Shown here: positions 1,191 through 28,034 of the stretch, piece after piece | How positions within the stretch are numbered: the first letter of the stretch is position 1 | Layout of the letters: each line of letters opens with the position of its first letter | DNA from: an uncultured bacterium | GTDB taxonomy: Bacteria; Planctomycetota; Phycisphaerae; Phycisphaerales; SM1A02 | NCBI GenBank assembly: GCA_903891095.1 | Contig: CAITDI010000044.1 | Coordinates: 1 to 36,793, forward strand | DNA length: 36,793 nt | Direction of reading: 5' to 3' | Program-made: the position numbers and the translations under genes | The notes under the pieces: model-generated | Databases searched by the model: none | What the model was told of the DNA's origin: nothing | Seen by the model: the letters and a program-made list of their open reading frames with translations, nothing else

Positions 1191-1204
1191 GTCGCGAGAG
1201 TATC
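1191..1204 (-). promoter_or_regulatory. Candidate -10 element, possible leaderless start of the amidotransferase gene
   Basis: On the minus strand GATACT (1204-1199) is preceded by TGT, giving an extended -10 pattern, and ends 8 bases before the ATG at 1190. It overlaps the stop codon of the upstream ligase gene, so it would be an internal operon promoter. No -35 box is obvious. The support is the same arrangement in front of four other genes of this window. Confidence 0.4.
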
Positions 1205-8126: not shown

Positions 8127-8142
8127 CGCGAGCACCGAACGC

Positions 8143-8955
8143 ATGTCCGCCCTCGCCGCGATCCTCCGCTCCACGCTGCTGCGCAACCGCGAGCTCACGC
8201 TCGAGCTCGCGCGCCGCGAGGTGATGGAGCGCTACGCCGGCGCCGCGCTCGGCTCGATCTGGGCCGTGCTCACGCCGCTGCTCACGATGGGCATCTATGT
8301 CGGCCTTTTCGGCTTCGTGTTCCCCACGCGCTTCGGCACGACGGGTTCGCCGTGGCTCGGCGCCGCGCTGATTCTCTCGGGCCTCGTGCCGTGGATCACC
8401 GTCGCCGACTGCGCGGTGCGCGCGCCGAGCGTGCTGCTCGCGCACCGCGCGCTCGTGCGGCAAGTCGTCTTCCCGATCGAGGTGCTGCCCGCGAAATCCG
8501 CGATCGCGTGCCTCGTGCCGCAAGGCGTCGGCACCGTCGTCGGCCTCGCGATCGCGCTCTCGACGGCGGGGCCGTCGCCGATGCTCGCGCTGCTGCCTGT
8601 CCTGTGGATCGTGCAGATCGCGCTCATGCTCGGGCTCATGCTGCTCCTCGCCACGCTCGGCGTCTGGCTGCGCGACCTGCGCGAGATCATGGCGTTCCTC
8701 GCGAACGTCGGCCTCTACATCGCGCCGATCCTGCTGCTTCCACAGGTGATCGACGCGCTGCCGCGCCCCGCGCAGTGGCTGATCATGGCGAATCCATTCA
8801 GCCACATGGTCTGGTGCTACCACGATGCCGTGGTGCTGCAGTCGTTCGCGCATCCGTGGTCGTGGCTCGTGTTCCCCGCATTCGCCGCGTGCGCGCTCGC
8901 GCTCGGCGCGCGGCTCTTCACGCGGCTCAAGCCCGCGATGGGAGAAGCGCTGTGA
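8143..8955 (+). CDS. wzm: ABC-2 type polysaccharide export permease, Wzm-like
   Basis: A 270-residue membrane protein with about six transmembrane helices. The N-terminus (RNRELTLELARREVMERYAG followed by ALGSIWAVLTPLL) matches the conserved start of O-antigen and teichoic acid ABC-2 permeases. It forms the channel that carries lipid-linked glycan across the inner membrane. An in-frame ATG at 8086 would overlap the upstream methyltransferase by 41 bases; the ATG at 8143, 17 bases after that stop, gives the usual family N-terminus and is preferred. The stop overlaps the start of the ATPase gene in a GTGA junction, as expected for subunits made in equal amounts. Confidence 0.88.
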   Translation: MSALAAILRSTLLRNRELTLELARREVMERYAGAALGSIWAVLTPLLTMGIYVGLFGFVFPTRFGTTGSPWLGAALILSGLVPWITVADCAVRAPSVLLAHRALVRQVVFPIEVLPAKSAIACLVPQGVGTVVGLAIALSTAGPSPMLALLPVLWIVQIALMLGLMLLLATLGVWLRDLREIMAFLANVGLYIAPILLLPQVIDALPRPAQWLIMANPFSHMVWCYHDAVVLQSFAHPWSWLVFPAFAACALALGARLFTRLKPAMGEAL

Positions 8956-10220
8956 ACACGCCGCAGGCTCCCGCGCTCCGCATCAGCGGCGTCTCGAAGG
9001 CGTTCGAGATCTACGCGTCTCCCGCGCAGATGCTGCTCGAACTCATCGGATTCGGCACGCGGCACGAGCGCTTCCAGGCGCTCACCGGCGTGAGCGTCGA
9101 GATCAACCGCGGCGAAGTCGTCGCGATCGTCGGCCGCAACGGCGCAGGCAAGTCGACGCTGCTCAAGATCGTCGCGGGCACCCTCGCCGCCGACAGCGGT
9201 GCGGTCGCGGTCAATGGCCGCCTCTCCGCGATCCTCGAGCTCGGCACGGGATTCCATCCCGACTACACGGGCCGCGAGAACATCATCATGGGCGGCCTCT
9301 GCCTCGGCATGACGCGCCGCGAGATCCTCGCCAAGCAGGACGAAGTCGCCGCGTTCAGCGAGCTCGGCGATTTCCTCGACCGCCCGTTTCGCACGTATTC
9401 AAGCGGCATGCAGGCGCGGCTCTGCTTCTCCACCGCGCTTGCGTGCGAGCCGTCGATCCTCGTCGTCGACGAGGCGCTCTCGGTCGGCGACGTGCGCTTC
9501 CAGCGCAAGTGCTTCGCGCACTTCGAGCAGCTTCGCGCGCGCGGCACCACGATCCTGCTCGTCTCGCACGACATGAACGCCGTCGCGCAGATCTGCGACC
9601 GCGCCGTCTGGCTCGAGCGCGGCAAGGTCGTCGCCGTCGGCAGCGCGAAGGAAGTCGCGGAGAACTACCTGCGCGCGATGCTCGCTCCGAGCGACGCGTC
9701 GGCGCCGAAGTCCAGCGATGCAGCCGCGGCTTCTGCGACGCACCTCGGCGGCGACATCGCGCCCGAGATGCGCTACGGCTCGGGCGCGGCCGTGATCGAG
9801 CGTGTCGAAGTCGTCGACGCCGCAGGAAATCCCGTCGATCTCCTGCGTCCGCGCGCGAGCTACACGCTGCGCGCGCGCGTGCGCGCCGTGCGTCCGCTCG
9901 ACGACCTCCACGTCGGATTCGCGATCCGCACCGTGCGCGGCGTCGAGGTCTTCTCGATCAACCCGCGTCCGCAGCGCGTCGCGCCCGTGCCGCTCGCGCC
10001 AGGCGAAGGCGTCACCGCCGAAATCGCGTTCACCAACCATCTCGCGCCCGGCGACTACTTCGTCACCGTCGGCGCGTGGGGGCTCGGCGACGACGCGCAC
10101 CACGACCGTCGCGTCGATGTCCTCCAGCTGCATGTCGCGGGCGACATCGGCGCGCTCGCGCAGTCGCTCGTCGATCTCGACGCCGAATACCGCTTTACGG
10201 CCAAGGAATCCGCGCGATGA
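8952..10220 (+). CDS. wzt: Polysaccharide ABC transporter ATPase with C-terminal glycan-recognition domain, Wzt-like
   Basis: A 422-residue ATPase starting at GTG 8952, which overlaps the permease stop. Walker A is GRNGAGKST (61-69), the signature is SSGMQ (150-154), Walker B is ILVVDEAL (169-176) and the switch His is in VSHDM (204-208). Residues from about 260 onward form an extra beta-rich domain (ERVEVVDAAGNPVD..., GVEVFSIN) of the Wzt_C kind. In E. coli O8/O9a and related systems this domain recognises the modified non-reducing end of the O-chain before export. Its presence here, between a methyltransferase and a sulfotransferase gene, suggests substrate selection by a terminal group. 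The following gene starts in an ATGA overlap at 10217. Confidence 0.9.
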   Translation: MNTPQAPALRISGVSKAFEIYASPAQMLLELIGFGTRHERFQALTGVSVEINRGEVVAIVGRNGAGKSTLLKIVAGTLAADSGAVAVNGRLSAILELGTGFHPDYTGRENIIMGGLCLGMTRREILAKQDEVAAFSELGDFLDRPFRTYSSGMQARLCFSTALACEPSILVVDEALSVGDVRFQRKCFAHFEQLRARGTTILLVSHDMNAVAQICDRAVWLERGKVVAVGSAKEVAENYLRAMLAPSDASAPKSSDAAAASATHLGGDIAPEMRYGSGAAVIERVEVVDAAGNPVDLLRPRASYTLRARVRAVRPLDDLHVGFAIRTVRGVEVFSINPRPQRVAPVPLAPGEGVTAEIAFTNHLAPGDYFVTVGAWGLGDDAHHDRRVDVLQLHVAGDIGALAQSLVDLDAEYRFTAKESAR

Positions 10221-12177: not shown

Positions 12178-13668
12178 TCACGCGTAGAGCGCGCACATCG
12201 ACCGCGACATCCGCTCCAGCGAGAACTCCGCGTGCGTGAACGCCCGCGCGTTCGCCGACATGCGTGCGCGCAGCGCGTCGTCGTGCACGATCGCGAGCAC
12301 TCCGCGCGAGAGTGCCTCGGCATCGCCGCTGTCCGCGAGGATTCCCGTCTCGCCATCGCGCACCGCATCGGGGATGCCGCCGACCTTCGTCGCCACGACG
12401 GGCGTGCCCATCGCCTGCGCCTCGACGAGCACGTTCGGCGTGCCCTCGACGCGCGAGGTCAGCAGCGCCACATCCGCTGTCGCGAGCAGCGCGATCGCAT
12501 CGTTGCGTCGCCCGAGCAGCCGGAATGATCCGCCCATCGGCGCCGCAGCACGCGCGAGCTCGTCGCGCATCGGGCCATCGCCCGCCACGCAGAACAGCGC
12601 GCGCGGCTCCTTCGCGAGCACGCGTCGCGCGACATCTGCAAACAGCAGCGGCTGCTTCTCGTCGCCGATGCGAAACACTCCGACCACCAGCGGCCGACCG
12701 GCTGCGCCCAGCTCATCGCGCAGCGCCGCACGGCGCGCGTCGTCCGCCGACGCGAGCACCGATGGATCGAGTCCGTTGCGCACGACGCCGATCCGCGCGC
12801 GGTCGATGCCGATCCACCGCGCGTAGTCGTCCGCGCCGGCCTCGGAGTTCGCGCACATCCGCACGCGCGCGTCCGCTGCGAGCACGCGGTACCACGGCAG
12901 CATCCACGGCTGGCACCACGCCGGAAAGTGCGTGGGGTTGAGCGAGCGAAACGTCAGCACCACGCGCGGCACGCCGACCGCGAGCGCCGCGACGCCCGCG
13001 CAGATGTTCGCGTGATCGAGCCACGCCTGCACGACATCAGGCCCGCTCGCGAGGAACTCGCCTGCGAGGTCCGTCGCGTACGGCCGCAATGCAAGCGGAA
13101 TCGCCATAAGCCGCCGCCGCAACTGCTCGTCCTGCGCGAATCTCCTGCGCACTTCATCCGACGCCGTCGTCGCAGCGCCCGCGTGGACGAGCGGAATCCC
13201 CGCGTCGAGCACCATCGGCGCGTAGTGCGCATGAACGCCTTCGCACGCGTTGAGCGTGAGTACGCGCTGATCCGCGAGCCCGAGACGCTGCGATTCTCCC
13301 GCAAACAGCGCGAGCTGACGCTCCGCGCCGCCTGCAGCGAGGCTGCCGATCACCTGCACCGCGCGTGGCCGTACCGCCCGTGGCTGAACCGCGTCGCGCT
13401 GAACCGCATCGCGCTGCACCGCCCGTGGCTGAACCGCGTCGCGCTGAACCGCGTCGCATTGCACGCATGCCTGCGCGTCGATCACCCACGCGCACGCATC
13501 GACCGAAGGCGCAGGCGCGATCGCGCCCGACAGCGCACGCGCCGAGGCAATGGCCTTCGCGCCGACCACGCGCGCCGCGCGCCGCGCGCCCGCGCGCGCC
13601 ACGCGCATGCCAAGCGCGGCAACGCGCTGGCCAAGCGGCGGGCGCAGGCACTGCTCGTAGACGCCCAT
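12178..13668 (-). CDS. Family 4 glycosyltransferase with pentapeptide-repeat linker
   Basis: A 496-residue GT-B enzyme. Residues 1-70 are an Ala/Arg-rich extension and residues 71-105 are five-residue repeats of the RDAVQ/PRAVQ kind. The catalytic part starts with VQVIGSLAAGGAERQL (about 104-119) and ends with EGTPNVLVEAQAMGTPVV and GGIPD, the donor-binding signature of Glycos_transf_1. It is the paralogue of the gene at 13668-15143 and its ATG shares one base with that gene's stop (TGATG). In the paralogue the region before the catalytic part is not repetitive, so the repeats look like local expansion in this copy. Its role is sugar transfer in the polysaccharide locus; donor unknown. Confidence 0.85.
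   Translation of the reverse strand: MGVYEQCLRPPLGQRVAALGMRVARAGARRAARVVGAKAIASARALSGAIAPAPSVDACAWVIDAQACVQCDAVQRDAVQPRAVQRDAVQRDAVQPRAVRPRAVQVIGSLAAGGAERQLALFAGESQRLGLADQRVLTLNACEGVHAHYAPMVLDAGIPLVHAGAATTASDEVRRRFAQDEQLRRRLMAIPLALRPYATDLAGEFLASGPDVVQAWLDHANICAGVAALAVGVPRVVLTFRSLNPTHFPAWCQPWMLPWYRVLAADARVRMCANSEAGADDYARWIGIDRARIGVVRNGLDPSVLASADDARRAALRDELGAAGRPLVVGVFRIGDEKQPLLFADVARRVLAKEPRALFCVAGDGPMRDELARAAAPMGGSFRLLGRRNDAIALLATADVALLTSRVEGTPNVLVEAQAMGTPVVATKVGGIPDAVRDGETGILADSGDAEALSRGVLAIVHDDALRARMSANARAFTHAEFSLERMSRSMCALYA
13354..13473 (-). repeat. 15-bp tandem repeats inside a glycosyltransferase gene
   Basis: Eight contiguous 15-base units, of which seven are clear and the last (13459-13473) is degraded. 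On the plus strand there are two unit types, CTGAACCGCGTCGCG and CTGCACCGCCCGTGG, mixed in the order B, B-variant, A, A, B, A, A, degraded. The period is a multiple of three, so copy-number change keeps the frame. Confidence 0.9.
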
Positions 13669-15143
13669 CAGCCGCGCTCCTTGCGCGCATACATCGCGAC
13701 CGACTCATCGACCATCCGCTGCAGCCCGAACCGCTCCGAGACAAACGCCCGCGCCCGCGTCGAAAGCCGCGCGCGCAGCGCGTCATCGCCGAGCACCTCG
13801 AGCACGTGCCGTGAGAGCGCATCGGTATCGCCGACATCGCACAGGAATCCGCTGCCGCCGTGCTCGACCGCATCGACCGTTCCGCCGCCGCGCGTCGCGA
13901 CCACGGGACAGCCAAGCGCCTGCGCCTCGAGCAACGCATTCGGAGTGCCTTCCTTGCGCGACGCGTGCATCACGATGTCCGCGACCGACAGCAGCGCCGC
14001 CACGTCGCTCCGTCGTCCGAGCAGGCGGAACCGCGCCGCGTCGACCGCGTTCGTCTGCGCCTCAAGCGCCGACTTCATCGGACCGTCGCCGGCCACGAGC
14101 ACGCATGCATCGTCGTTCGCGCGCAGCACGCTGTTGGCGGCGCGCGCGAAATCAAGCGGTTCCTTCTCCTCCGCCACGCGAAACACGCCGAGCACCACGC
14201 GCCGACCTTCGACACCGAGCTCCGCGCGCAACGCGGCAAGCGCCGCGTCATCAGGCGGCTGCATCGCCGCATGATCGAATCCATTCGGGATCACCGCGAA
14301 CCGCTCGCGCGGCACGCCCATCCAGTCCGCGTAGTCCTCCGCGCCCACCCGCGAATTGCCGATGAACCGCACGCGGTCCGAGCTCGCGAGCCTCCGGTAC
14401 CACGCCAGGAAGTACGGCGCGTCGATCATCGGAAAGTTCGATGGATTCACGTTCCGCGTCGAGAGCACGATCGTCGGCACGCCAGCGATAAACGCCGCGA
14501 TCGCGCCCCAGATGTTCGCGTGATCCAGCCACGCATGCACGACGTCCGGCTTCAGCCGCACAAACTCGCACGCGAGCTCGATCACCCAAGGCCTGTACGC
14601 GGGATCAACCGCGATCAGCCTGCGCTGCATGCCCTTGTCGAGCGCGAGCGCCGCCGCCGTCGCCTCGTCGCGCGTCGCGCCCGCGACCTCGACGATGACG
14701 CCGCCGTCCTGTGCGAGCGGCAGGTAGTGCGCAGCCGTGCCCACCAGTGGATTGGTGAGCATGATCCGCGCCTCGACCGATCCGCCTCGGAGCGACTCGC
14801 GCGCGAGATACACCAGCTGTCGCTCGGCGCCACCCGCGGAAAGGCTCCCGATCACGTGCACGACGCGCGGCCGGTCGCGCGGCGGCGGCGCGTACGCCGG
14901 GAGCGCGAGGATTTCCTTCGCGAGCTCGTCATCGGACGCGAACGCCGGCGCTTCCTGGCGAACGCTGCCCCGCATGGCCTGCACGGCCTGCGGTCGAACG
15001 CCGAACAGTCCGAGCGCCCTCGACGAGCCGACCCACATCGCGCGCCTCATCAGGTGCGGAACACGGCTCCAACGCGTCAACGAAATCGCCTTCGACATGG
15101 TCGGCGCGCGAAGACGATCGAGTTCGGCCGTGTAGCAACGCAT
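13668..15143 (-). CDS. Family 4 glycosyltransferase with N-terminal extension
   Basis: A GT-B glycosyltransferase of up to 491 residues. The catalytic region begins VVHVIGSLSAGGAERQLVYL at about residue 94; the C-terminal part has EGTPNALLEAQALGCPVVATRGGG. The first 93 residues are a basic extension with a hydrophobic stretch, also present in diverged form in the paralogue downstream. The start is uncertain: the ATG at 15143 and a second at 15098 (MSKAIS) both lack a good ribosome binding site. It heads a two-gene leftward unit convergent with the export operon and divergent (69 bases) from the methyltransferase at 15213. The paralogue shares GGAERQL, HAWLDHANI-type and EGTPN motifs, so tandem duplication followed by divergence is likely. 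Confidence 0.85.
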   Translation of the reverse strand: MRCYTAELDRLRAPTMSKAISLTRWSRVPHLMRRAMWVGSSRALGLFGVRPQAVQAMRGSVRQEAPAFASDDELAKEILALPAYAPPPRDRPRVVHVIGSLSAGGAERQLVYLARESLRGGSVEARIMLTNPLVGTAAHYLPLAQDGGVIVEVAGATRDEATAAALALDKGMQRRLIAVDPAYRPWVIELACEFVRLKPDVVHAWLDHANIWGAIAAFIAGVPTIVLSTRNVNPSNFPMIDAPYFLAWYRRLASSDRVRFIGNSRVGAEDYADWMGVPRERFAVIPNGFDHAAMQPPDDAALAALRAELGVEGRRVVLGVFRVAEEKEPLDFARAANSVLRANDDACVLVAGDGPMKSALEAQTNAVDAARFRLLGRRSDVAALLSVADIVMHASRKEGTPNALLEAQALGCPVVATRGGGTVDAVEHGGSGFLCDVGDTDALSRHVLEVLGDDALRARLSTRARAFVSERFGLQRMVDESVAMYARKERG

Positions 15144-16809: not shown

Positions 16810-18387
16810 TTACGGCGCGACCACGCCCCACTGCGTGTTGGCATTGCGAATGAATCCGCCCTGCGTCTTCGCGAAGCCGTCCAGGATCCACGCATTCACA
16901 TCGCCCGTCAGCGTGTTGCGCCAGACGATGTCGTACTTCCCGTCGCCGTTGAGGTCGCGCAGACCGTCGATGCGCCAGACGGAGCCGATCGCAGCGCCGT
17001 TGTTCATGAGTCCGCCGGTCACGCGCTGCGTGCCGTTCATCATCCACGCGCACACCGTGCCCATGGTGCGATGACGCCAGATCACGTCGGCCTTGCCGTC
17101 GCCCGACACGTCGGCCACGCCCGCCACGAGCCACTCGGCCGCGACCGGTCCCGAGACGTTGGTGATGTTTCCTTGCGTACCGATGTCGAGGCCCTGCATC
17201 AGCCACGCACTGACCACGCCGCTCGACGCGCGCCACAGGATGTCCTGGTGACCGTCGCCGTCGAGATCGGCGATCGCTTCCGCGGTCTTGCCGCTGGCGT
17301 TTCCGATCAGGCCGCCGGCGATCTTCACAAAGCCTTCCATCAGCCACGCGTTCACGTTGCCGGACACCGAATCCTGCAGCACGATGTCGCCGCGGCCGTC
17401 GCCTGAGATGTCGCCGATGCCGACGCACTGCCAGTTGGACGGAATCGGCAGCGAGATCGCGCCCTTGGCCAACACGGTCAGTCCATCGGTGAGCCACGCG
17501 TGAAAGCGCCCCTGCGCATCGCGCCACACGATGTCGGTCGAGCCGTTTCCATCGAGGTCGCCCATGCCCTGCAGCGTGTATCCCGCAGGAACAGCATCGC
17601 TAAACACGCCGCCCGCCTTGCGGCCGACGCCAAGCATCAGCCATCCCGCGAGCTGCCGCGAGATCGGGTTGTAGAACAGCAGATCCGACCGGCCGTCGTA
17701 GTCGAGTTCGTCGGCCGCGTACTTCGTGAGTCCGCCCGACGGATAGAAGAACTGCCGCGAGCCCGTGCCGAACGCGACCGCGCCGCTGTTCGCGTAGCCC
17801 ACGGTCCCTTCAAACTGCAGGTTCAGTCCAGGCGCGTATTGATCGGCGGTCACGACGAACACACCCAGCAGCACCTTCAGGTCCGAGCCTGCGAGGCCAA
17901 AGCTGTTCGTCGGCGGAATGTTGTACCAACCGGCCGCGCCGCCGATCTCGTTGGCGTCGACGAACTTCGCGTCGTTGAAGCCAGGATCCGCGATCGTTCC
18001 GTTGAGCATGTTGCCTTGCAACGCGCCGATGGTCACGTATGTGTCGAATCGCCACGCCTCGCCCGGCGGCAGGTAGCCCATCGGGAGAAAGCTCTTGGGG
18101 ATCTCATCGATCACCGATTCGGCCTGGAAGAACACCGCCGTCGCCTGCGGATCGATCGCATTCGCAAGCGACGCGGTCACATTGAACGCGTTGAGCACGC
18201 GGTCCGTCGGGTCGTCGAAGGTCGCGTAGACCTCCATGACGTGGTACGTGTTCTCCGTACCTTGGACGACGTAGCTCGTGCTGCCGAAGCCTGTGAAGTC
18301 GGCCGTCGCGGGCGACGCCGCGATCGAGATCGCTGCGGTGAGGGATGCGACGGCGGTGATGGACGCAGCGAGAGGACGGTTGCGCAT
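16810..18387 (-). CDS. Secreted six-blade FG-GAP/VCBS repeat protein A
   Basis: A 525-residue exported protein. Residues 1-29 form a signal peptide ending ATA before DFTG. Residues 30 to about 224 are a beta-rich N-terminal domain (STSYVVQGTENTYHVMEVYATF...) that I do not recognise. Residues about 225-525 hold six blades of pattern D-L-D-G-D-G-x-x-D-I-V-W-R-x5-G-x-V-x-A-W-L-M-x-G, with calcium-binding Asp loops; this fits VCBS/FG-GAP (PF13517) beta-propeller blades. The last blade closes with GGFIRNANTQWGVVAP at the C-terminus. The start at 18387 gives the cleanest signal peptide and has AAGAG about 9 bases upstream; in-frame ATGs at 18411 and 18423 are possible. Its front end differs from those of the three neighbouring cassette genes. 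No sorting signal is visible. Confidence 0.85.
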   Translation of the reverse strand: MRNRPLAASITAVASLTAAISIAASPATADFTGFGSTSYVVQGTENTYHVMEVYATFDDPTDRVLNAFNVTASLANAIDPQATAVFFQAESVIDEIPKSFLPMGYLPPGEAWRFDTYVTIGALQGNMLNGTIADPGFNDAKFVDANEIGGAAGWYNIPPTNSFGLAGSDLKVLLGVFVVTADQYAPGLNLQFEGTVGYANSGAVAFGTGSRQFFYPSGGLTKYAADELDYDGRSDLLFYNPISRQLAGWLMLGVGRKAGGVFSDAVPAGYTLQGMGDLDGNGSTDIVWRDAQGRFHAWLTDGLTVLAKGAISLPIPSNWQCVGIGDISGDGRGDIVLQDSVSGNVNAWLMEGFVKIAGGLIGNASGKTAEAIADLDGDGHQDILWRASSGVVSAWLMQGLDIGTQGNITNVSGPVAAEWLVAGVADVSGDGKADVIWRHRTMGTVCAWMMNGTQRVTGGLMNNGAAIGSVWRIDGLRDLNGDGKYDIVWRNTLTGDVNAWILDGFAKTQGGFIRNANTQWGVVAP

Positions 18388-18577
18388 GGGGCGATCTCTT
18401 GAAAACGGCATTCGAAGCCGCATCGTTTGTCGCCATCGGCGCGTGGAATGAGGGGATTGACCCGTGTTCCCGCGCGCCTTCCCGAATTGCGCGCTTCCCG
18501 CCGAACAATCCGTCTGCGCCGGTTGTGCGGGCAGGGTTGATATCTCGGGGCGCCTTGCTTGCCCGTCCTTCAACTCA

Positions 18578-18612
18578 AATGAAACAGGCGCCGCCGATGT
18601 CGGCGACGCCTG
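18578..18612 (-). terminator. Intrinsic terminator of the 18662-21400 gene
   Basis: Arms 18585-18597 and 18600-18612 form a 13-bp stem with one mismatch and a two-base loop. On the minus strand it is followed by TTTCATTT, about 50 bases after the stop codon. Confidence 0.85.
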
Positions 18613-18661
18613 TGGTGATGCGTTGTTGGCGAGTCTGAGCTTGTGACTCTGGTTCGCCGCG

Positions 18662-21400
18662 TCAGTTGGCCGCGACCTGGACCTTCGAAGTGGTCCCGTT
18701 CGGGAACACGATCTTGATCTCCCACTTCGGTCCCGAGTTCTCCTGGGCAAGCTCGGCCGAGTGCGGTGCGCCGGTCGGATTGGCGTTGATCGCAGTCGTC
18801 ACCGCCGCAGCGGAGGACACGGTCGCGGACGAGAGCGCGCCGATGGCTTCCGAGTAGTTGGCGAGCTGCGCCGCAGTCGGAGTCCACGACGTCGTGCTCA
18901 CGATCGCCCGCGTCGCGGCGTTGACAACGACGCGCACGAGTTGGCCGTTCGAGGCGCGCCACTGCGTGACGGCCACGTAGTACACGCCCGACTGCAGTTC
19001 GACTTCGCTTTCGAGGACAGGCAGGCTGCTGGTGGTCATGGCTGCGTTGATCGACGCGGTGTACGAGCTGCAGGACACGGTCGCGTTGTTGCCGCTTCCG
19101 CCGCCGCCGCTGTTGCCGCCGCCGCCGTTGCTTCCGCCGTTGCTTCCGCCATTGCCTCCGTTGCCACCGCTGCCCACGGAGTCGTCGTAGTCGTTCTCGT
19201 TCGAGTCGTCGCGGTTGTCATCGTCGCCCACGCCGTCGCGGCCGTGGTCGTCGTTGTAGTCGTCGTCGTTCAGCATCGACCATGAGGTCGCGACGTTCTT
19301 CACGAAGCTGCCCGCGGTCTTGGTGAAGCCGTTCATGAGCCACGCATTCACGTCGCCGGTGCTCATGTTGCGCCACAGCAGGTCTTCATTGCCGTCGCTG
19401 TTGAGATCGCCGGCTGCCTCGACGCGCCAGTTGAGCGGGATGCCTGCGTTCATCACGCCACTCGACTTGAGCGCCGTGCCGTCCATCATCCAGCCCGTGA
19501 CCGCGCCGGTCACGCTGTTGCGCCAGACGATGTCCCTCTTGCCGTCGCCGTCGAGGTCGGCGATCGCGACGGTCTTCCACTCCGCGGTCACCGGCGTCAC
19601 GCCCGTGATCGGCGAATCGGACACGATCGTCAGGCCGTTCATCATCCACGCGCGCATCTCGCCTGCAGCGGTGCGCCAGAGGATGTCGCCGCGACCATCG
19701 CCATCAAGGTCGGCCACGCCCGCGTAGATCAGGCCGAGCGCGTTGCCCACGGCGCCGCCGGAGGTCTTGGTTCCGCCGCTCATGATCCACGCGTTCACCT
19801 GCCCAGTGAAGCAGTTGCGGAGGATCACGTCGGCCTTGCCGTCACCCGAGATGTCGGTGAGCGCGAGGTACTCCCAGTCGAGACCGACGCCGCCGGAGAT
19901 CGCACGGTCATCGCTCACGGCGAGACCGTTGAGCCGCCACGCGCGGAACGCGCCGGTCGTCTTGTTGCGGAACAGCACGCTCGAGCGTCCGTCGCCGTGG
20001 AAGTCGCCGACGCCGAGGTACTCGTGGCCCGCGATGGTGTTCGGCACGATGCCGCCGCCATCCTTCGCGAGGCCGTTCATCGTCCACGCCGCGATGTTTC
20101 CGCTCGCGGGGCTGAACCAGAACACATCGCTGCGGCCGTTGTCATCGAGGCCCGCGCGTGCGTACTCGAGTCGATAGTGGTAGCCAGCGCCACGATTCAA
20201 CGCGCCGTTGGCGGTGGTCGGCGCGCCGACCATCACGCGCTCGCCCGCGATCGCGAGCGCATTCGCGAAGCCGCCGAGCACGGAGCCCGTCGACGCCGCA
20301 AGCTTGGAGCCTTCCTGCCAGACGCCCGTGCCCATGCGACGGTAGACCGTCGCGCTGCCCGCGCTCGCGACGCCGCGAACGGTGTCGAGCGGCGCGCCGA
20401 CGACGAGACGATCGTCGCTCGCCGCGAGCGCTGCGCCAAAGCGGTCGCCCGCCGCAGCATCGCTCGGCGTGATGCGAGCCGCCGACGGCCAGCTCAGGTC
20501 GGTCGCGCGCTGGTACACAAACGCAGCGCCGCAGGGGAGTCCGCTGTTGAGTGCATCGGGTGCACCGACAAACGCCCAGTCGCCCGCGATGGTGCCCGAG
20601 AGCGCCACCGAGGTGCCGTAGCCGATCGCGCCTGGTTCGCCAGCGGCGAACACGGCGGCCTGCGACCACGAGCCAGTGTTTCGGAAGAGGTACGCCGCAC
20701 CGGCGCCTGCAGCGTGTGCGGGCGCGCCGATGAGCGCGCGCGACGAACGCATCGCGACCGACGCACCAAAGTGGTCCGCGACCGCGCCGTCCGATGCAGT
20801 CAGCTTCGACTGCTCGACCCACGTGTTTCCCGTCGAGTTGCGGAACACATACGCCGCGCCACGGTCGGCCGCGCCTGCGACATCCGCGCCCGGCGCGCCC
20901 ACGACGACCGAGTCGCCGTTCATCGACACCGCCGCACCGAACTGGTCGCCTGCGACGCCGTCCGACGCCGTCAGCTTCGCGACCTGCGTCCAAGTCGCGC
21001 CGCTCTTGCGGAACACGTACACCGCGCCTTGATTCGCGCTCGCGCCACCTGGCCCGAACGGTGCGCCCACGACGACGATGTCGCCTTGCAGCGCGACGCT
21101 CGCGCCAAACGCATCTGACGCCGCGGCGTCGCTCGCGACCAGCGTCGCCGACACCGACCAGGTGTTGCTCGAACCACGATCGAGGATCGTCGCGGTGCCC
21201 GCGCCCGAGTTCGCGCCCGGCGCGCCGTACACGCTGCGACCGCTGTCCGTGGCGACCGACGCGCCAAAGGACTGGCTCGCAGCCGTCGACACGGGCGAGA
21301 GGACCAGGCGTTCCGTACGCGTCACGACTTCCTGCGCGGAAGCGGAGGCGATGAAGCAAAACGACAGACCAATCACCGAGGCAAGTTTCATGTTGTTCAT
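18662..21400 (-). CDS. Secreted FG-GAP protein B: integrin-type propeller, VCBS cassette and PepSY-like C-terminus
   Basis: A 912-residue exported protein. The signal peptide is about residues 1-22 (SASA before QE). Residues about 24-415 are FG-GAP repeats of integrin-alpha type, with repeated motifs such as FGASVA, VVVGAP and GAAYVFR. Residues about 417-708 are the six-blade VCBS cassette shared with the neighbouring genes, closing with GSFVKNVATSWSML. Unlike the others, the chain continues: a low-complexity linker (709-775) rich first in Asp/Asn and then in Gly/Ser, then a 137-residue C-terminal region. That region has two segments (ELQSGVYYVAVTQW...VVVNAATRAIVS and AELAQENSGPKWEIKIVFPNG) resembling PepSY repeats. 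The start has AGGGA upstream at 9-base spacing; a second ATG three codons in is possible. It has its own terminator. Confidence 0.87.
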   Translation of the reverse strand: MNNMKLASVIGLSFCFIASASAQEVVTRTERLVLSPVSTAASQSFGASVATDSGRSVYGAPGANSGAGTATILDRGSSNTWSVSATLVASDAAASDAFGASVALQGDIVVVGAPFGPGGASANQGAVYVFRKSGATWTQVAKLTASDGVAGDQFGAAVSMNGDSVVVGAPGADVAGAADRGAAYVFRNSTGNTWVEQSKLTASDGAVADHFGASVAMRSSRALIGAPAHAAGAGAAYLFRNTGSWSQAAVFAAGEPGAIGYGTSVALSGTIAGDWAFVGAPDALNSGLPCGAAFVYQRATDLSWPSAARITPSDAAAGDRFGAALAASDDRLVVGAPLDTVRGVASAGSATVYRRMGTGVWQEGSKLAASTGSVLGGFANALAIAGERVMVGAPTTANGALNRGAGYHYRLEYARAGLDDNGRSDVFWFSPASGNIAAWTMNGLAKDGGGIVPNTIAGHEYLGVGDFHGDGRSSVLFRNKTTGAFRAWRLNGLAVSDDRAISGGVGLDWEYLALTDISGDGKADVILRNCFTGQVNAWIMSGGTKTSGGAVGNALGLIYAGVADLDGDGRGDILWRTAAGEMRAWMMNGLTIVSDSPITGVTPVTAEWKTVAIADLDGDGKRDIVWRNSVTGAVTGWMMDGTALKSSGVMNAGIPLNWRVEAAGDLNSDGNEDLLWRNMSTGDVNAWLMNGFTKTAGSFVKNVATSWSMLNDDDYNDDHGRDGVGDDDNRDDSNENDYDDSVGSGGNGGNGGSNGGSNGGGGNSGGGGSGNNATVSCSSYTASINAAMTTSSLPVLESEVELQSGVYYVAVTQWRASNGQLVRVVVNAATRAIVSTTSWTPTAAQLANYSEAIGALSSATVSSAAAVTTAINANPTGAPHSAELAQENSGPKWEIKIVFPNGTTSKVQVAAN
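19080..19280 (-). repeat. Low-complexity Asp/Asn then Gly/Ser linker in protein B
   Basis: Encodes roughly residues 709-775. The first half is rich in GAC and AAC codons (DDDYNDD, DDDNRDD), the second in GGC/GGA/AGC codons (GGNGGSNGGSN). It separates the VCBS cassette from the C-terminal domain. Confidence 0.8.
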
Positions 21401-21483
21401 AGTGAGATCCCTAGTTACGAGGACGACAGCCGTAGGAACCGCGGGGCGATACGCAGATACGACGGCGCGATAAATATGCCTCA

Positions 21484-21520
21484 GAAAAACGGACTCGCCC
21501 CCGAATTTCGGGGGCGAGTC
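21484..21520 (-). terminator. Intrinsic terminator of the 21581-24028 gene
   Basis: A perfect 13-bp stem (21492-21504 with 21508-21520) and a three-base loop. On the minus strand it is followed by C-G-TTTTT. It lies about 60 bases after the stop codon. Confidence 0.93.
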
Positions 21521-21580
21521 GTCAGATTTCGGAGTTTCTGGCGCCGATTACTCGCGGCGCCAGAGGTAGTTACGGGCAAC

Positions 21581-24028
21581 TCACGGGTTCACGATGCGCC
21601 AGTCCAACGACGCTCTGCGGACGAACGCGCCGACGCGCTTGACCAGGCCTTCCATCAGCCAGACGTTGACGTCGCCGGTCGAATTGTTGCGCCACACGAT
21701 GTCCGACATGCTGTCGCCATCGAGGTCGGTCAGCGTCGCCAGGGTGTAACCCAGCCCGACGCTCGTGGTGACCACGCCTCCCGACTTCTTGGTGAGGCCG
21801 TCCATGAGCCAGCCGTTGACCTGACCAGTGGTGTTGTTGCGCCAGAGCAGATCGGCCTTGAAGTCGCCGTCAAGGTCCGCCATGCCGGCTGCCGACCACT
21901 CGAGCCCAACAGCCGCCGCATCGGCGATGTCGCCTTGCGCCTGGATCGTTAGCCCATTGAGCCGCCAACCGCTCACCACACCAGTGCTGCTGCGCCAGAG
22001 GATGTCCGCGTCGCCGTCGGCATCGAGGTCGCCGATGCCAAGGAACGTCAGGCCGGTCGCCGTGCCGATCAGGCCGCTGCCAGTCTTGATCAGTCCGGCC
22101 ATCTTCCAGCCGTACACCTTGTTGTCGGTGGCGCTCTTCCACAGGATGTCGCCGTTGCCATCGCGGTCGATGTCGGCGATCGCCAGGAGGCGGTAGTCGC
22201 CCGGAACCACACCGGTGATCGTCCCGCTCTGCGCCACGGCCGTGCCGCTCATCAGCACGCCGCGCACTGCGCCGGTCGTGAGGTTGCGCTCGACGATGTC
22301 CGAGCGCCCGTCGCCGTCGAGGTCGCCAAGTCCGCCGAAGGAGAAGCCCGCCGGCGCGGTCTCGTCCAACGCGCCACCCGAGGTGCGGGTGCGGCCCGAC
22401 ATGAACCACACGCTGAACTGCCGCGTGGTCGGATTGAACCACACGATGTCCGCCTCGCCATCGCCATCGAGATCGCTGATGGGCTTGAGCTCGCAGGTAT
22501 CCGGAATGCCGTTGCTGTTGCGGTCGGGAATCGTTCCGTCCGCGAGCTCGCAGCTGTCAGGCTTCTCGTTCAAGTTGCAGTCTGCCGAGTCGTAGTAGTA
22601 GTGAGCTCCCACCTTCGCTGCCGAGGTCGGGCACTCCACGCTGGACACCAGCGCCGACGCTGTGAGCCGGAAATGCGCCGCGCCGTTGTCGAGCAGCGCG
22701 TTGTAGAGCGTCGCCGGGAGGAAGATCGTCTCCTTCTGGAACGACGTCGGGCAGTTGAGACCGCCCTGCAGGAAGATGTAGTCGATGATCTGGTCGTTGA
22801 ACTTGAGCGTCAGGTACTCGCCCGGCGAGCCGAGGTCCGCCTTGACCTCGACTTCGACGATCACATCACCGACCGCGTTCGGAAGATTCGTGCCATCCGC
22901 CGCCGCAGTCGACGAGCTCGAGTACGGCGTGACCTGGACGCCAGCGAGGGTGGTCAGGCCACCTTCGCAGGAATCGATTCGGTTGTCGCTGTTGCAGTCG
23001 AACGTTGGATGCGTCGCGATGTCCTCGATGTCCGACACCTCGTTCGAGTCGCAGTCGCGGAAGTCCAGCTGTGCGGCAAAGCCAAGGCCGACTTCGAAGT
23101 CCCCGTAGACCGTGAGGACCGGCTGCAGCGGGGGCTCGTTCAGGTTGTTCGAATTGTTGCCCCAGATAAGGATCTGATTGTCGGAACGGCGCGCGGCGAT
23201 CGAATAGCCGTACGCGCGGAGCTGCGTGTAGGTCTGGCCCGTGCCCAGCGTGGGGACCTCGAGCTGCAGCAGCGAGTTGTCGCCAACCACTTCGACGGTG
23301 CCGTCCGACTTGAGATACGCGGTGGTGTTCCATGCGCAGACGATGTCGGAGACGGTCACGCCGCTGCCGAGCGTGGGCTGCGTGCCTTCGCCCTCCGAGT
23401 TGTCGCCCCACAGAACCACCGTGCCATCTGCCAACAGCGCGCCCGCGTGGTCGAGGCCACCGGAGAAGGCCGTCGGATGCGTGACGCGCACCGGAACCGT
23501 CGTCTGTCCCGCACTGTTGTCGCCCCACGCGAGCAGTTCGCCATCGGCGTTTCGACCAAGCGTGAAGAACGCTCCGCAGCGCACGAGGTCGTACGCCGAC
23601 GCGCTCGTCGCGACGTCGCACTGGTTGAAGGTGTTCGAGCCGAAGCACACGATCACGCCGTCCGATCGCAGCAGCGCCGAGTGCGCGCCGCCGCAGGCAG
23701 CCTGCGTGTAGGTCACGCCCGTCGGCAACGCGGGAGCGGTCAGCTGCCCGTCGTCGTTGCGACCCCACCCACGCACCACCCTGCCTGGCTCGAGGATCGA
23801 GATGCCGTGACCGTCGCCGAGCGCGAAGCACTTGAATGCCTCGGTGTAGCCGAGGTTCGGCGTATCAGTTCCGCCCGAAGGACTGAGTCCCCACGCAGTG
23901 ATGGTGCTCGTGTCGTCGGCGAATGCGGCACCTGCGATGGCGCACGCCACCACAATGGGCAGTCCGAGATAGGCGCCGAGGCGCGAGAGCGAGGAGCGGG
24001 TTCGGGTGAACTTCAGGGGCTTCTTCAT
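21581..24028 (-). CDS. Secreted protein C: RCC1-like propeller, calcium-loop linkers and VCBS cassette
   Basis: An 815-residue exported protein. The signal peptide is about residues 1-37 (GAAFA before DD). Residues about 40-325 hold RCC1-like repeats (GWGRNDDGQL, CFGSNTFNQC, AWGDNSAGQT, LWGDNSEGEG, WGNNSNN), forming a propeller. Residues 325-357 and 483-514 are Cys/Asp-rich calcium-loop segments (DCDSNEVSD, DCNSDNRIDSC, DRNSNGIPDTC), of the thrombospondin-3/dockerin-like sort common in planctomycete exported proteins. Between them, residues 358-482 look like a beta-sandwich domain I cannot name. Residues 515-815 are the six-blade VCBS cassette ending GAFVRRASLDWRIVNP. The ribosome binding site is weak (GGAA about 9 bases upstream). 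It has its own strong terminator and a 312-base gap upstream. Confidence 0.88.
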   Translation of the reverse strand: MKKPLKFTRTRSSLSRLGAYLGLPIVVACAIAGAAFADDTSTITAWGLSPSGGTDTPNLGYTEAFKCFALGDGHGISILEPGRVVRGWGRNDDGQLTAPALPTGVTYTQAACGGAHSALLRSDGVIVCFGSNTFNQCDVATSASAYDLVRCGAFFTLGRNADGELLAWGDNSAGQTTVPVRVTHPTAFSGGLDHAGALLADGTVVLWGDNSEGEGTQPTLGSGVTVSDIVCAWNTTAYLKSDGTVEVVGDNSLLQLEVPTLGTGQTYTQLRAYGYSIAARRSDNQILIWGNNSNNLNEPPLQPVLTVYGDFEVGLGFAAQLDFRDCDSNEVSDIEDIATHPTFDCNSDNRIDSCEGGLTTLAGVQVTPYSSSSTAAADGTNLPNAVGDVIVEVEVKADLGSPGEYLTLKFNDQIIDYIFLQGGLNCPTSFQKETIFLPATLYNALLDNGAAHFRLTASALVSSVECPTSAAKVGAHYYYDSADCNLNEKPDSCELADGTIPDRNSNGIPDTCELKPISDLDGDGEADIVWFNPTTRQFSVWFMSGRTRTSGGALDETAPAGFSFGGLGDLDGDGRSDIVERNLTTGAVRGVLMSGTAVAQSGTITGVVPGDYRLLAIADIDRDGNGDILWKSATDNKVYGWKMAGLIKTGSGLIGTATGLTFLGIGDLDADGDADILWRSSTGVVSGWRLNGLTIQAQGDIADAAAVGLEWSAAGMADLDGDFKADLLWRNNTTGQVNGWLMDGLTKKSGGVVTTSVGLGYTLATLTDLDGDSMSDIVWRNNSTGDVNVWLMEGLVKRVGAFVRRASLDWRIVNP

Positions 24029-24340
24029 ATGGGGTTCCAGCTTTCCGACCTTCGCAACTGCGGTTGTGACGCAGCACAGGAAGGTTCGTCATCGACCATC
24101 CGACCGCCTGAATGCGACCGGGGGTGGGTGGTTGTATCGGTCCAAAAGCAGCCTCGACCACACCGCCGCCAGGGTTCGTTGGCGAAACGGGCGACTCAAG
24201 ACGCCTTCCTGCCCCGACGGGTTCAGCCGATCGCGTGGTAGTGACTCCTACGGCGCAAATACAGGTTGGAAAAAGAAGCCGGCCCTCGTCGCGGAGACGA
24301 GGGCCGGCGGGTGCGGAAGAGTTCTGTGCTGCTCAGCGGA
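24029..24340. other. Intergenic region between two cassette genes
   Basis: The 312 bases hold the terminator of the 24341-25882 gene (24269-24308) and the upstream region of the 21581-24028 gene. I see no gene, and no clear sigma-70 or sigma-54 promoter for the downstream gene. Confidence 0.6.
24269..24308 (-). terminator. Intrinsic terminator of the 24341-25882 gene
   Basis: A perfect 13-bp GC-rich stem (24278-24290 with 24296-24308) and a five-base loop. On the minus strand it is followed by TTCTTTTTCC. It lies about 30 bases after the stop codon. Confidence 0.93.
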
Positions 24341-25882
24341 TCAGCGGAGGACCTGCCAGGAGCTCTGGACGCCGCGGATGAACGAGCCAGACTGCTTGGT
24401 CAGGCCATTCATCAGCCAACCGTACACGTCGCCGGTGGTCTTGCTGCGCCAGATCATGTCGCCGCGACCGTCGCCGTTCAGGTCGGGGGTTCCGACGATC
24501 TGCCAATCGGCTCCGACCGAGGTCGAGATGTAGTTGCCGGAGACGCGGCGGACGCCGTTCATCAGCCAGCCCGTCACGATGCCGGTGTTGGAGTCCTGCC
24601 AGATCACGTCGGCGTGGTTATCGCCATCGAGATCGGTCATGCCGACGACCTTCCAGTTCGGGGCCGGCGAGCAGGCATTGCCCACGTAGCCAGAGAAGGT
24701 GATCGTCAAGCCGTCCATGATCCAGCCGATGACGTTGCCGCCAGAGTTCTGCCAGAGCATGTCCTGCTTGCCGTCGGCGTTGAGGTCGCCGATGCCGAGG
24801 AACTTGAGTCCCGCGGAGTCGCCGATGTTTCCGCCCGCGGTCTTGGTGAGACCGTTCATGAGCCAGCCGCGGACCTCGCCGGTCGCGCTGTTGCGGAGCA
24901 CGCAGTCAGCCTTGCGGTCGCCGTTGAGGTCACCGATCGCGATGATGTCCCAGGACGCCTCGAGCGAACCCGAGATGAAGCCCTGCGAGATGACCGAGTT
25001 GCCGTTCATCAGCCACGCCGAGAAACGGCCCGTGCTGAGGTCGCGCCAGATCATGTCGGCGTGACGGTCGCCATCGAGGTCGCCGAGGCCGGAGGACTTG
25101 GCGTTCGCGCCGGGATCAGCCGAGGTGTAGCCGCCGCTTGCACGGGTCAGGCCGTCCATCGTCCAGATCGTCGACTTGCGCGAGCTCGGGCTGAACCACG
25201 CCACGTCGGACTTGCCGTCGAGGTTGAAGTCGTCGCGCACGAATGCAGCCGCGGCCTGGGCAGGGGCGTTGCACTGCACGTGGTCGATGTAGATCGGGAT
25301 GATCGACGAGATCGCGATGCTGTCGATGCCGGCAGCGTTCTCGACGCCGATGAAGGTGTCGTCGCTCGCGTCGTTCGCGTTGCTGAGCACATCAAAGACG
25401 CGGGTCTCAGACGAGCCGTCGATGAAGTACACGGTGACCGTGACCGGCGCAGCGGCGCCGAGGCCGCTGGTGTCCGTGATCACGAAGCCAGCCTGGGTCG
25501 GCTGACCGCCGAGCTGCTTCGCGATGAAGGTGATCTGCGAGAAAGCGGGGTCGAAGACCGGGCCCCACGCGCCGAGCGGAAGGCTCTTGCCGAGAGCGCC
25601 GTTGCCGTCGATCGACTGATCGTCGGCGTCGACGGAGTTGCCGTTGTCGACGACCGCAGCGGGCTGGAACGAAAGTCCCACCGTGCGTGCGCCCTCGAAG
25701 TCATCGACGATCAGCGCGTCAACTGCGAACGCGCTGTCGGACTTCGAGTGGTATCCAGCGATCTGGCTCCAGGTGGAGGCTCCACCCGCGAGCGCGGCCG
25801 AAGTCGCGAGCGAGCTTGCGAGTCCAGCGGCGACGAGGCCGAAGGTGCGAACGGTGTTCGCGTTGCTATTCCAAGTCTTCAT
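24341..25882 (-). CDS. Secreted six-blade FG-GAP/VCBS repeat protein D
   Basis: A 513-residue exported protein. The signal peptide is about residues 1-32 (SAALA before GG). Residues 33 to about 210 are a beta-rich N-terminal domain (VDDFEGARTVGLSFQP, VTVYFIDGSSETRVFDVL) that may be a lectin- or CBM-like sandwich; no firm family. Residues about 212-513 are the six-blade VCBS cassette (DLDGDRHADMIWRD, DLNGDGRGDMIWRS), closing GSFIRGVQSSWQVLR. The ATG has a strong AGGAG 7 bases upstream, the best ribosome binding site of the four cassette genes, and a perfect terminator follows. It is the closest of the four to the sigma-54 regulator gene, which lies on the same strand 306 bases upstream. Confidence 0.87.
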   Translation of the reverse strand: MKTWNSNANTVRTFGLVAAGLASSLATSAALAGGASTWSQIAGYHSKSDSAFAVDALIVDDFEGARTVGLSFQPAAVVDNGNSVDADDQSIDGNGALGKSLPLGAWGPVFDPAFSQITFIAKQLGGQPTQAGFVITDTSGLGAAAPVTVTVYFIDGSSETRVFDVLSNANDASDDTFIGVENAAGIDSIAISSIIPIYIDHVQCNAPAQAAAAFVRDDFNLDGKSDVAWFSPSSRKSTIWTMDGLTRASGGYTSADPGANAKSSGLGDLDGDRHADMIWRDLSTGRFSAWLMNGNSVISQGFISGSLEASWDIIAIGDLNGDRKADCVLRNSATGEVRGWLMNGLTKTAGGNIGDSAGLKFLGIGDLNADGKQDMLWQNSGGNVIGWIMDGLTITFSGYVGNACSPAPNWKVVGMTDLDGDNHADVIWQDSNTGIVTGWLMNGVRRVSGNYISTSVGADWQIVGTPDLNGDGRGDMIWRSKTTGDVYGWLMNGLTKQSGSFIRGVQSSWQVLR

Positions 25883-26188: not shown

Positions 26189-27679
26189 TCAGCAGGCCTC
26201 GCCCATGGCGCCAAGCCCGAGGTCGCGCATCTTCCGATAAAGAGTGGTGCGGTTGATGCCCAGGCTCGCTGCAGCCTTGGAACGGTTCCATCCATGCGCT
26301 GCGAGCGCCGCAAGCAGCGCCGCGCGCTCCGGATCGCGCATCGCGTCCGCGAGCGACTTCGACTTCGCGGCGCTGGCTGAACCCGCCGACGCGCCAGCAT
26401 CCAACGCACGTTGCGGCGCCGCGAACGGCAGTGGTTCGATGGGCTCGGCCGCACGAACGACGGCAGCGTTCAGAATTCGTTCAGGCAGATGTGGGCGGTC
26501 GATCCACGCTCCGTCGCACACGATTGCCGCGCGCTCGATGGCGTTCTCGAGCTCGCGCACATTGCCAGGCCACGCGTAAGCGCGCATCGCCTCGGCGGCC
26601 TCGGCGGTGAAGCCGAGGATGGTGCGTCCAAGCTCCGCACTCTTGCCGCGCAGGAAGTGCTCCGCAAGCGCCGTGGTGTCGTTCGGCCTCTCGCGCAGCG
26701 GCGGCAGTTCGATCGGCAGCACGTGCACGCGATAGAAGAGGTCCTGCCGGAAGCGACCTTCCTCGACAAGCCGCTCGAGCGGCTGGTTCGAAGCAACGAT
26801 GACGCGGACATCGACCTCGATGGTGTCGTCTGCGCCCACAGCCTCGAACTTGCGCTCCTGCAGCACGCGCAGCAGCTTGAGCTGCATGGTCGGCGACGCG
26901 GAGTTGATCTCGTCGAGAAACAGCGTTCCGCCGTCCGCCGCGAGGAATCGACCCTTCTTGTCCGCGATCGCGCCGGTGAATGCGCCCTTCACGTGACCAA
27001 AGAGTTCGCTTTCAAGCAGCGTCTCGGGGATCGATCCGCACGCGAGCTCGACGAACGGCATCGCTGCACGCGTCGAAGCGCGGTGAATCGCGCGGGCCAA
27101 CATGCTCTTGCCGGTTCCCGATTCGCCGTGGATGAGCACCGTCGAACGCACGCGACTCGCGGCACGCGCGAGTTCGAGCGCGCGCCCGAGCCGTTGATCG
27201 CGGCCGACGATCTGCGCGAGTGCATCGCCTGATTCCGCGGCTGGCTGTTCGCGGCTCGCGCGTGTGTCCAGCGTGTTTCGCGTTGCCGCGCGGGCAACGG
27301 TCTGCGCCAGTTCATTCGCGCTGAACGGCTTCATGAGCACGTCGGCGGCACCCGCGCGGATCCACTCGATCGCGCGAGCGGCCGCGATGTCGGCACCGCA
27401 GGCGATCACCGAAGTTCGAGCGCAGGCGCCTCGGGCCGACTGAAGCAAGCCCAGCAGCTCGCGGTCGCGCCCGCCGACATCGGCGAGCACGATCGCCTCG
27501 GCGTGTCCTCGCAGGGCCGCAACGACCTGGTCCACGGTCCCAGCGATTTCGCACCCGTAGCCGAGCGTCGACAGCGTCTGTCGGACCGCCGCCGCCGCGT
27601 ACGGGTCGGGGTCCAACACCACAACGCGAGCATGGCAGCTCGTGGGCACGGAAAGGCCGGCTGGTTCCTTCTCGCTCAC
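26189..27679 (-). CDS. Sigma-54-dependent transcription activator, NtrC-type, with atypical receiver
   Basis: A 496-residue bacterial enhancer-binding protein. The N-terminal receiver-like domain (about 18-130) has Asp67 in VLADVGG and Lys117 in LMKPF. The central AAA+ domain has Walker A GESGTGKS (185-192), the sigma-54-contacting loop GAFTGA (232-237), Walker B GGTLFLDE (250-257) and the WPGNVREL motif. A Fis-type helix-turn-helix (NRSKAAASLGINRTTLYRK) ends the protein. The GTG at 27679 is chosen because GAGGAG lies 10 bases upstream; a TTG at 27697 in the same frame has a poorly placed site. The receiver lacks one of the paired acidic residues (LDPDP instead of a DD pair) and the Thr/Ser position looks like Cys. 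No histidine kinase gene is nearby. Targets are unknown; adjacent genes are candidates. Confidence 0.9.
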   Translation of the reverse strand: MSEKEPAGLSVPTSCHARVVVLDPDPYAAAAVRQTLSTLGYGCEIAGTVDQVVAALRGHAEAIVLADVGGRDRELLGLLQSARGACARTSVIACGADIAAARAIEWIRAGAADVLMKPFSANELAQTVARAATRNTLDTRASREQPAAESGDALAQIVGRDQRLGRALELARAASRVRSTVLIHGESGTGKSMLARAIHRASTRAAMPFVELACGSIPETLLESELFGHVKGAFTGAIADKKGRFLAADGGTLFLDEINSASPTMQLKLLRVLQERKFEAVGADDTIEVDVRVIVASNQPLERLVEEGRFRQDLFYRVHVLPIELPPLRERPNDTTALAEHFLRGKSAELGRTILGFTAEAAEAMRAYAWPGNVRELENAIERAAIVCDGAWIDRPHLPERILNAAVVRAAEPIEPLPFAAPQRALDAGASAGSASAAKSKSLADAMRDPERAALLAALAAHGWNRSKAAASLGINRTTLYRKMRDLGLGAMGEAC

Positions 27680-28034
27680 CGTTCGATCGCTCCTCAAGCC
27701 TTCTATCGAGGCTGTTGCTCATCGGCGCGGCTAGGACCGCACCGCAGGTCGACGGGTTTGATTGCAGCGGAGTTTCAGTTATCGGGACGGCTCTGGCCGC
27801 CATCGTCGGAGCGAATTGCAGGTCGTTGACGGGCGGCTCGCGTCAAGTTGCACAAAATCGCGACGAGATTCGGTCATACTCCGCGACCTGCCCCGTTTGG
27901 TGCGGCTCTCGCCGCGCGCCATTCCGGCCCGCAGCAAGTCGCCTGACGCTAGGTCAGATCCATGTCAGGTCAGATCCACGCCAGGTCAGATCCACGTCAG
28001 ACCAAGCCCTGATGGCAAGTTTGGAGCCGAACCC
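27680..28034. other. Divergent intergenic region with tandem repeats
   Basis: The 355 bases lie between the leftward regulator and the rightward Gly/Met-rich protein gene. They hold a CATACT hexamer (27875-27880), a possible -10 for the rightward gene, and three 16-base direct repeats (27951-27998). The frame of the 28035 gene stays open through here, but the predicted peptide has no signal peptide or known motif, so I treat it as non-coding. Confidence 0.6.
27951..27998 (+). repeat. Three tandem 16-bp repeats upstream of the 28035 gene
   Basis: Units are 27951-27966, 27967-27982 and 27983-27998, each AGGTCAGATCCACGTC with one or two changes (the first has ATGTC, the second ACGCC). AGACC, a partial fourth copy, follows. 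They end 36 bases before the start codon. Confidence 0.9.

Follow-up and report, generated by a model that had tools for sequence, protein, structure and literature searches.

The window, that is, the whole stretch of DNA analysed here (36,793 nt of contig CAITDI010000044.1 from an uncultured planctomycete, with coordinates given as positions 1–36,793 of the forward strand), belongs to a genome that is 98.6% complete. At 16810–25882 it carries four minus-strand genes, each encoding one unit of six FG-GAP/VCBS blades with a length of about 300 residues, hereafter the cassette. FG-GAP_3 and FG-GAP both exceeded their gathering scores in all four proteins, and every cassette has six loop positions of the DxDxDG type. 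The signal peptides of the four proteins were judged by eye only.

Gene 1 (type A; 16810–18387, minus strand) encodes a secreted protein with a beta front domain (17722–18300) and a C-terminal cassette (16813–17721), the latter delimited by sequence comparison and by a model. Its open reading frame (ORF) extends to a TTG at 18750, within gene 2, and the ATG at 18387 was judged by eye to be the likelier start. In gene 2 (type B; 18662–21400, minus strand), an FG-GAP_2 front is followed by an internal cassette (19268–20164, by sequence comparison) and then by a tail of 201 residues (18665–19267), made up of an acidic segment, a Gly-rich linker and a domain resembling PepSY (24.6 bits against a cut-off of 24). 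A tail of 177–201 residues is present in all 11 type-B orthologues. Gene 3 (type C; 21581–24028, minus strand) combines RCC1 repeats and a Cys/Ca-loop front with a cassette at 21584–22486, again placed by sequence comparison. Gene 4 (type D; 24341–25882, minus strand) has a beta front domain (25241–25801) and a cassette at 24344–25240.

The original prediction, made from the letters of this stretch, held that all four genes begin with unrelated front ends and finish with the six-blade unit. The front ends indeed differ in their Pfam assignments, which are FG-GAP_2 for gene 2, RCC1 for gene 3 and none for genes 1 and 4. The unit itself and the grouping of its blades (see below) also hold, and genes 1, 3 and 4 end as described; gene 2 does not, since its tail follows the cassette.

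The Six-Blade Block and Its Age

The cassettes of genes 2–4 are 42–44% identical to that of gene 1. Mean identity is 42.4% between blades at the same position of different proteins, 35.8% between different blades within a protein and 34.5% between blades with neither position nor protein in common; none of 5000 permutations matched the observed same-position mean. In the tree of the 24 blades, eight label changes are needed when blades are labelled by position and 16 when they are labelled by protein.

The comparison was extended to 56 cassettes from 17 genomes, which sort by their fronts into types A, B, C and D (genes 1–4, respectively), E and F. A tree of 264 blades from 44 of these cassettes (types A–D, leaving aside four diverged genomes) required 10 changes by position and 30 by type. 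Blades thus cluster by position and not by protein. Identities, permutations and trees agree that the six blades were passed on as one block and joined to unrelated fronts, as had been proposed.

Blade lengths follow the same pattern. A length of 48 residues is found for blade 1 in 51 and for blade 3 in 52 of the 56 cassettes, and one of 47 residues for blade 6 in 52, although the exact values vary with the placement of the cut. The cassette of a type-B-like gene in genome G031 was excluded from the 56, as it matched the model only in part. The blade-specific marks listed in the original prediction all occur in the four window proteins; for instance, the alignment shows blade 4 to be one residue short between its paired aromatics in all four. 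Some of the marks persist throughout the genus, and two weaken. The strict [FY]-x-P of blade 1 is found in 24 of the 56 cassettes (the proline alone in 37), and the marked position of blade 3 is occupied by L in 23, F in 24, W in eight and S in one.

A profile built from the four cassettes gave six full-length matches in the own genome, namely the four of the cluster and one each at the C20 and C18 loci, the remainder being partial and below 40 bits. Every one of the 15 further genomes of the genus that were searched has one or more full cassettes; in 14, two or more lie on the same contig. Among the other genera of the family, full cassettes were found in one of 21 genomes (G031), and the remaining genomes of the family and order searched with this profile gave at best partial matches. 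In a sample of the class (297 genomes, seven candidates scored per genome, G031 evidently not among them), an E value of 1e-40 or lower was reached in four, i.e., the own genome and three of its genus.

In the cassette tree, clades are formed by types B (99/100, starred), C (98/92, starred) and A (89/72, unstarred). Type D does not form one clade in the best tree, where type E is placed inside part of it, but its monophyly was not rejected (p-AU 0.076). From the position of type E (the C20 locus and G009), it seems that a D-like cassette was at some later time joined to a new front; type F (the C18 locus) has an A-like front and groups with A. For types A–D, mean cassette identity is 46.4% between members of the same type in different genomes (331 pairs), 37.7% between different types in one genome (67 pairs) and 35.2% between different types in different genomes (980 pairs). 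Since orthologous cassettes are closer to each other than neighbouring ones are, the four types are, on these comparisons, older than the diversification of the genus. For the same reason, recent local duplication and concerted evolution among neighbouring cassettes were both rejected. The duplication originally envisaged therefore stands with respect to the shared block and the new fronts, and fails as a recent event, because the types predate the genus (46% vs. 38%). The nearest relatives of each cassette are neither its neighbours nor sequences from unrelated genomes; they come from other, related members of the genus.

Several loci deviate from the general picture. The type E protein of the own genome (L064; contig C20, 7539–10319, minus strand) has a new front of about 600 residues with a weak DUF7453 match below the cut-off, and the type F protein (L065; contig C18, 5264–7132, plus strand) has a diverged A-like front. 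In the type-B-like gene of G031 (L059; 6243–9005, minus strand), the match covers only some 130 of 300 cassette positions, and its cassette is thus diverged or degraded. The loci of G004, G007, G010 and G011 (L060–L063) represent a subgroup of the genus with strongly diverged cassettes and long branches in the tree.

In a wider search, of which the best 80 of 84 matches were kept, those outside the family were mostly of another nature. A wide spread of the cassette through loci L071–L081 and L084 was considered and rejected: tblastn aligned these nearly end to end, but the profile matched them piecewise, mostly over blades 4–6. They belong to metagenome-assembled genomes of Nitrospirae and to Candidatus Magnetobacterium casense, all of which we take to be magnetotactic, and contain VCBS blades of a similar sequence type in variable numbers. 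In the outside rows of the alignment (A6), blade 3 has 49–50 residues and not 48 in seven of eight; row L083 has 48, and its remaining blades differ. A Chloroflexaceae ORF (L082) matched the profile end to end in one piece with 208 bits, so that a relative of the cassette may exist beyond the family.

Front Domains and Their Alternative C-Terminal Ends

Of 61 genomes searched with front-domain profiles, 32 contain type A fronts and 20 contain type D fronts. The type A census was taken from 107 matches without 22 of the weakest (E 1.7e-7 and weaker), and 88 ORFs were read, eight of which run off their contigs. The 80 complete ORFs comprise 51 with PEP-CTERM-like ends (a P-x-P-G-type motif, a hydrophobic stretch and a basic cluster), 18 with six blades, one with other blades, six with dockerin or Ca-loop ends and four classified as "other." Three of these four are dockerin-like by eye (nine dockerin-like ends in all), and one fits none of the classes. 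The term PEP-CTERM-like is used because only some of the ends pass curated models. PEP_CTERM was passed by L174 (24.4 bits, cut-off 16) and dockerin_GC by L180 (30.3 bits, cut-off 29); the two ends of the common PAPG...RRRR form that were tested against the curated models, L175 and L185, gave no match, and L169 remained below the cut-off.

Type D fronts were read in 21 ORFs, a count that leaves aside the type D ORF of G011. The cassette follows in 15 of them, PEP-CTERM-like ends in two, a dockerin-like end in one, other blades running off the contig in one, and "other" ends in two, both of which are PEP-CTERM-like by eye. For types C and B together, 20 stretches were chosen from 128 and eight matches, respectively. 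Elsewhere in the own genome, 23 ORFs with type C fronts were taken and six were open; of the 17 complete ones, 14 have, as judged by eye, a terminal dockerin-like pair, three have another tail and none has the cassette. One of the four other ORFs with type B fronts has a dockerin-like end. Proteins with RCC1 repeats and Cys/Ca-loops form a large family across the own genome (G000; the 128 matches), in which dockerin-like ends are frequent.

The six-blade ORFs stop in or just past the last blade, both with type A fronts (18 of 18) and with type D fronts (15 of 15), and in none of them is the cassette followed by a PEP-CTERM tail, i.e., a P-rich motif, a transmembrane stretch and a basic cluster. 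The NCBIfam dockerin models, searched in the four window proteins at E values up to 0.01, had no match. Exosortase (PF09721) was detected in 40 of 41 genomes, the own genome included with two matches, and therefore both attachment systems coexist. Relatives of the fronts that lack the cassette have PEP-CTERM-like or dockerin-like ends instead. The cassette is thus one of several modules that alternate at a single C-terminal position, which is an interchangeable slot.

These ends give independent support to the idea of a common anchor, which was part of the original prediction. The same cannot be said of its "variable recognition parts." Among orthologues, identity of the front versus the cassette is 50 versus 47% (A), 64 versus 56% (B), 44 versus 43% (C) and 45 versus 45% (D), and hypervariable fronts were thus rejected: conservation of the fronts roughly equals or exceeds that of the cassettes.

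Predicted Fold and the Polysaccharide Locus

An AlphaFold2 model of gene 4, calculated from an alignment of 17 rows, places the cassette from residue 221 onward with block means of the predicted local distance difference test (pLDDT) of 88–98. It contains six groups of four strands (23 strands of at least three residues and a last one of two residues). The cassette of gene 1 gave a similar, slightly less sure model, with blocks of 77–97 and a last block of 64. The cassette is therefore predicted to be a six-bladed propeller of four-stranded blades. The front domains of both genes were modelled at low confidence, and no fold is claimed for them.

With VIA-align, the top match of both models was 9oee_A, UmbA4 bound to teichuronic acid (TUA). 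The figures are Z 30.7, root-mean-square deviation 2.6 Å, 304 residues and 17% identity for one, and Z 29.5, 2.9 Å, 310 residues and 15% identity for the other, over ranges that start inside the fronts (residues 128 and 40) and thus include aligned residues outside the cassette. The next chains followed at Z 16.8 and 16.1; Psathyrella-type N-acetylglucosamine (GlcNAc) lectins scored about Z 16–17. The two models are paralogues that share most of their alignment rows and are not independent. According to the UmbA4 study, its six-bladed propeller binds TUA and two sites recognise the polymer (PMC13274773). VCBS-like propellers are described as typically carbohydrate-associated but also engaged in protein–protein interactions (PMC9218822).

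Polysaccharide genes are present in the neighbourhood of the cluster. Two GT4 glycosyltransferases (12178–15143, minus strand) adjoin it, and further away are a Wzm-like polysaccharide export permease (8086–8955, plus strand; 28 bits, far below the equivalog cut-off of 380), an ORF with Wzt (8352–10220, plus strand; ABC_tran and Wzt_C, the true start being later than the ORF start) and, in the same polysaccharide region, an O-antigen ligase (Wzy_C; 1203–3512, minus strand). The window also codes for an asparagine-synthase-like amidotransferase and methyltransferases, and has three glycosyltransferases in all. On the other side of the cluster are a sigma-54-dependent NtrC-type response regulator (26189–27697, minus strand) and a Gly-rich protein (P0005; 27762–29954, plus strand) with no family above cut-off and a weak EF-hand match. 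Homologues of each occur in the cassette loci of 12 relatives; those of the Gly-rich protein, near the type D gene, are 63–73% identical in 11 relatives and 46% in G031.

Of the 15 loci whose cluster includes a type A gene, nine have a Wzm homologue. In two of these, the window and G008, the homologue and the type A gene are not adjacent; in the remaining seven (L052, L053, L054, L055, L057, L060, and L067), it lies 110–257 bases downstream of that gene and in the same orientation, as measured from ORF and alignment edges. Wzm/Wzt pairs were confirmed by Pfam (ABC2_membrane with ABC_tran/Wzt_C, above cut-off for ABC2_membrane) in L052, L054, and L055. The locus is conserved in these respects; its gene order shows some variation. 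The type C gene has changed place: in the window and in G013, G014 and G005 (L050, L051, and L052) it is found between B and D, and in L053, L054, L055, and L057 about 5 kb past D, on the other strand and after a hexapeptide gene.

A Putative Surface-Retention Module and Its Rivals

We tentatively propose, with somewhat less than even confidence, that the cassette is a calcium-loop, lectin-like VCBS propeller which serves as an interchangeable C-terminal module for retention at the surface on the cell's own polysaccharide. The proteins would be exported through the Sec route, as their signal peptides (seen by eye) suggest. Once outside, the propeller would bind a polysaccharide belonging to the envelope or matrix of the same cell, most probably the one that the linked Wzm/Wzt locus exports. 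The attached front end would in this way stay at the surface without exosortase processing. The conserved block, the fold prediction, the C-terminal position common to these ends and the conservation of the locus are observed; the binding of a sugar, its identity and the anchoring role are what we infer here. More doubtful is the wider claim that the cassette constitutes a third planctomycete class of C-terminal retention, in which a lineage-specific lectin propeller on Wzm/Wzt-exported self polysaccharide replaces exosortase tags or dockerins on at least four unrelated front families in one conserved locus. In the open-licence PMC literature, no paper on such a propeller anchor was found.

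A number of observations weigh against this proposal. The cassette of gene 2 is not an end module, being internal and followed by the PepSY-like tail. The best 50 rows of Foldseek did not include 9oee and placed other propellers first, with low TM-scores; PDB sequence searches by profile (E up to 0.1) and by single sequence (E up to 10) did not list UmbA4 either, and the UmbA4 match is therefore treated as one of fold, without a claim of homology. Among 44 cassettes of four types, 37 columns are conserved to at least 90%; these consist of Asp, Trp, Gly or Met in 35 cases and of Arg in two, and from sequence no shared ligand patch is plain. The Wzm gene of the window is about 8 kb from gene 1 and on the opposite strand, and six of the 15 type A loci have no Wzm homologue within the examined stretch, several of these stretches ending early. 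A promoter link to the neighbouring NtrC-type regulator was also rejected: none of the 52 cassette genes tested has an upstream sigma-54 site that stands out (lowest fraction of equally good random stretches 0.115), four more having too little upstream DNA.

The strongest rival, which we consider unlikely, is that the cassette is an outward-facing lectin or adhesin for foreign glycans (algal, particle or neighbour-cell), the fronts being spacers or extra binding domains. It accords with UmbA4, the best structural match, which recognises wall polymers of other cells, and with fronts conserved like the cassettes or more, unlike fast-changing recognition parts. However, members of these front families found elsewhere have PEP-CTERM-like or dockerin-like ends where the cassette would be, nothing able to anchor the cassette lies after it (the tail of gene 2 excepted), and the cluster leads into self-polysaccharide export genes in seven relatives.

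Considerably less probable is a protein–protein platform, without sugar binding, which would assemble the four products or dock them on an outer-membrane partner. The types are kept at one locus throughout the genus and propellers, integrins included, are common protein-binding scaffolds, but no conserved non-structural patch across types is plain from the sequences and no candidate receptor was identified. Least probable of all seems the case of ordinary FG-GAP/VCBS paralogues, with the shared propeller as a leftover of duplication without common function. VCBS-type matches are common in genomes of the order, and duplication with divergence accounts for the shared block; on the contrary, the front families are unrelated, the cassette was apparently joined to a new front later (E inside D), and in most of the 56 cassettes each blade position has its fixed length, which argues for constraint.

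Comparison with known systems helps to place the proposed retention module. Similarly to UmbA4 (PDB 9oee) of the Streptomyces umbrella particles, the cassette is predicted as a C-terminal six-bladed propeller with Ca-type loops in a secreted multi-domain protein; it differs in its low identity (15–17%), phylum and partner domains, and no toxin system is implied for the cassette proteins. Integrin-type bacterial FG-GAP propellers share the FG-GAP/Ca-loop blades, and the front of gene 2 is of the FG-GAP_2 kind, but those propellers have seven blades with the Cage motif (PMC3192720), and the cassette has six. After related fronts, the cassette sits at the same C-terminal position as PEP-CTERM/exosortase and GC-type dockerin ends. 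Unlike PEP-CTERM, which is tied to exopolysaccharide loci (PMC1569441), it is a folded domain of 300 residues without a transmembrane or basic tail, and for this reason no exosortase route is expected for it.

In the "choice-of-anchor" families of NCBI, one N-terminal family is combined with alternative C-terminal attachment modules; we know of no propeller among the anchors listed. To our knowledge, the attachment of many large secreted proteins in planctomycetes is little understood. If the proposal is true, a folded propeller would do the work of a sorting tag or dockerin, which would offer a simple test of how a polysaccharide coat is decorated. The cassette would also represent a natural case of attachment-module shuffling at a C-terminal position, with each of the alternatives seen among related proteins.

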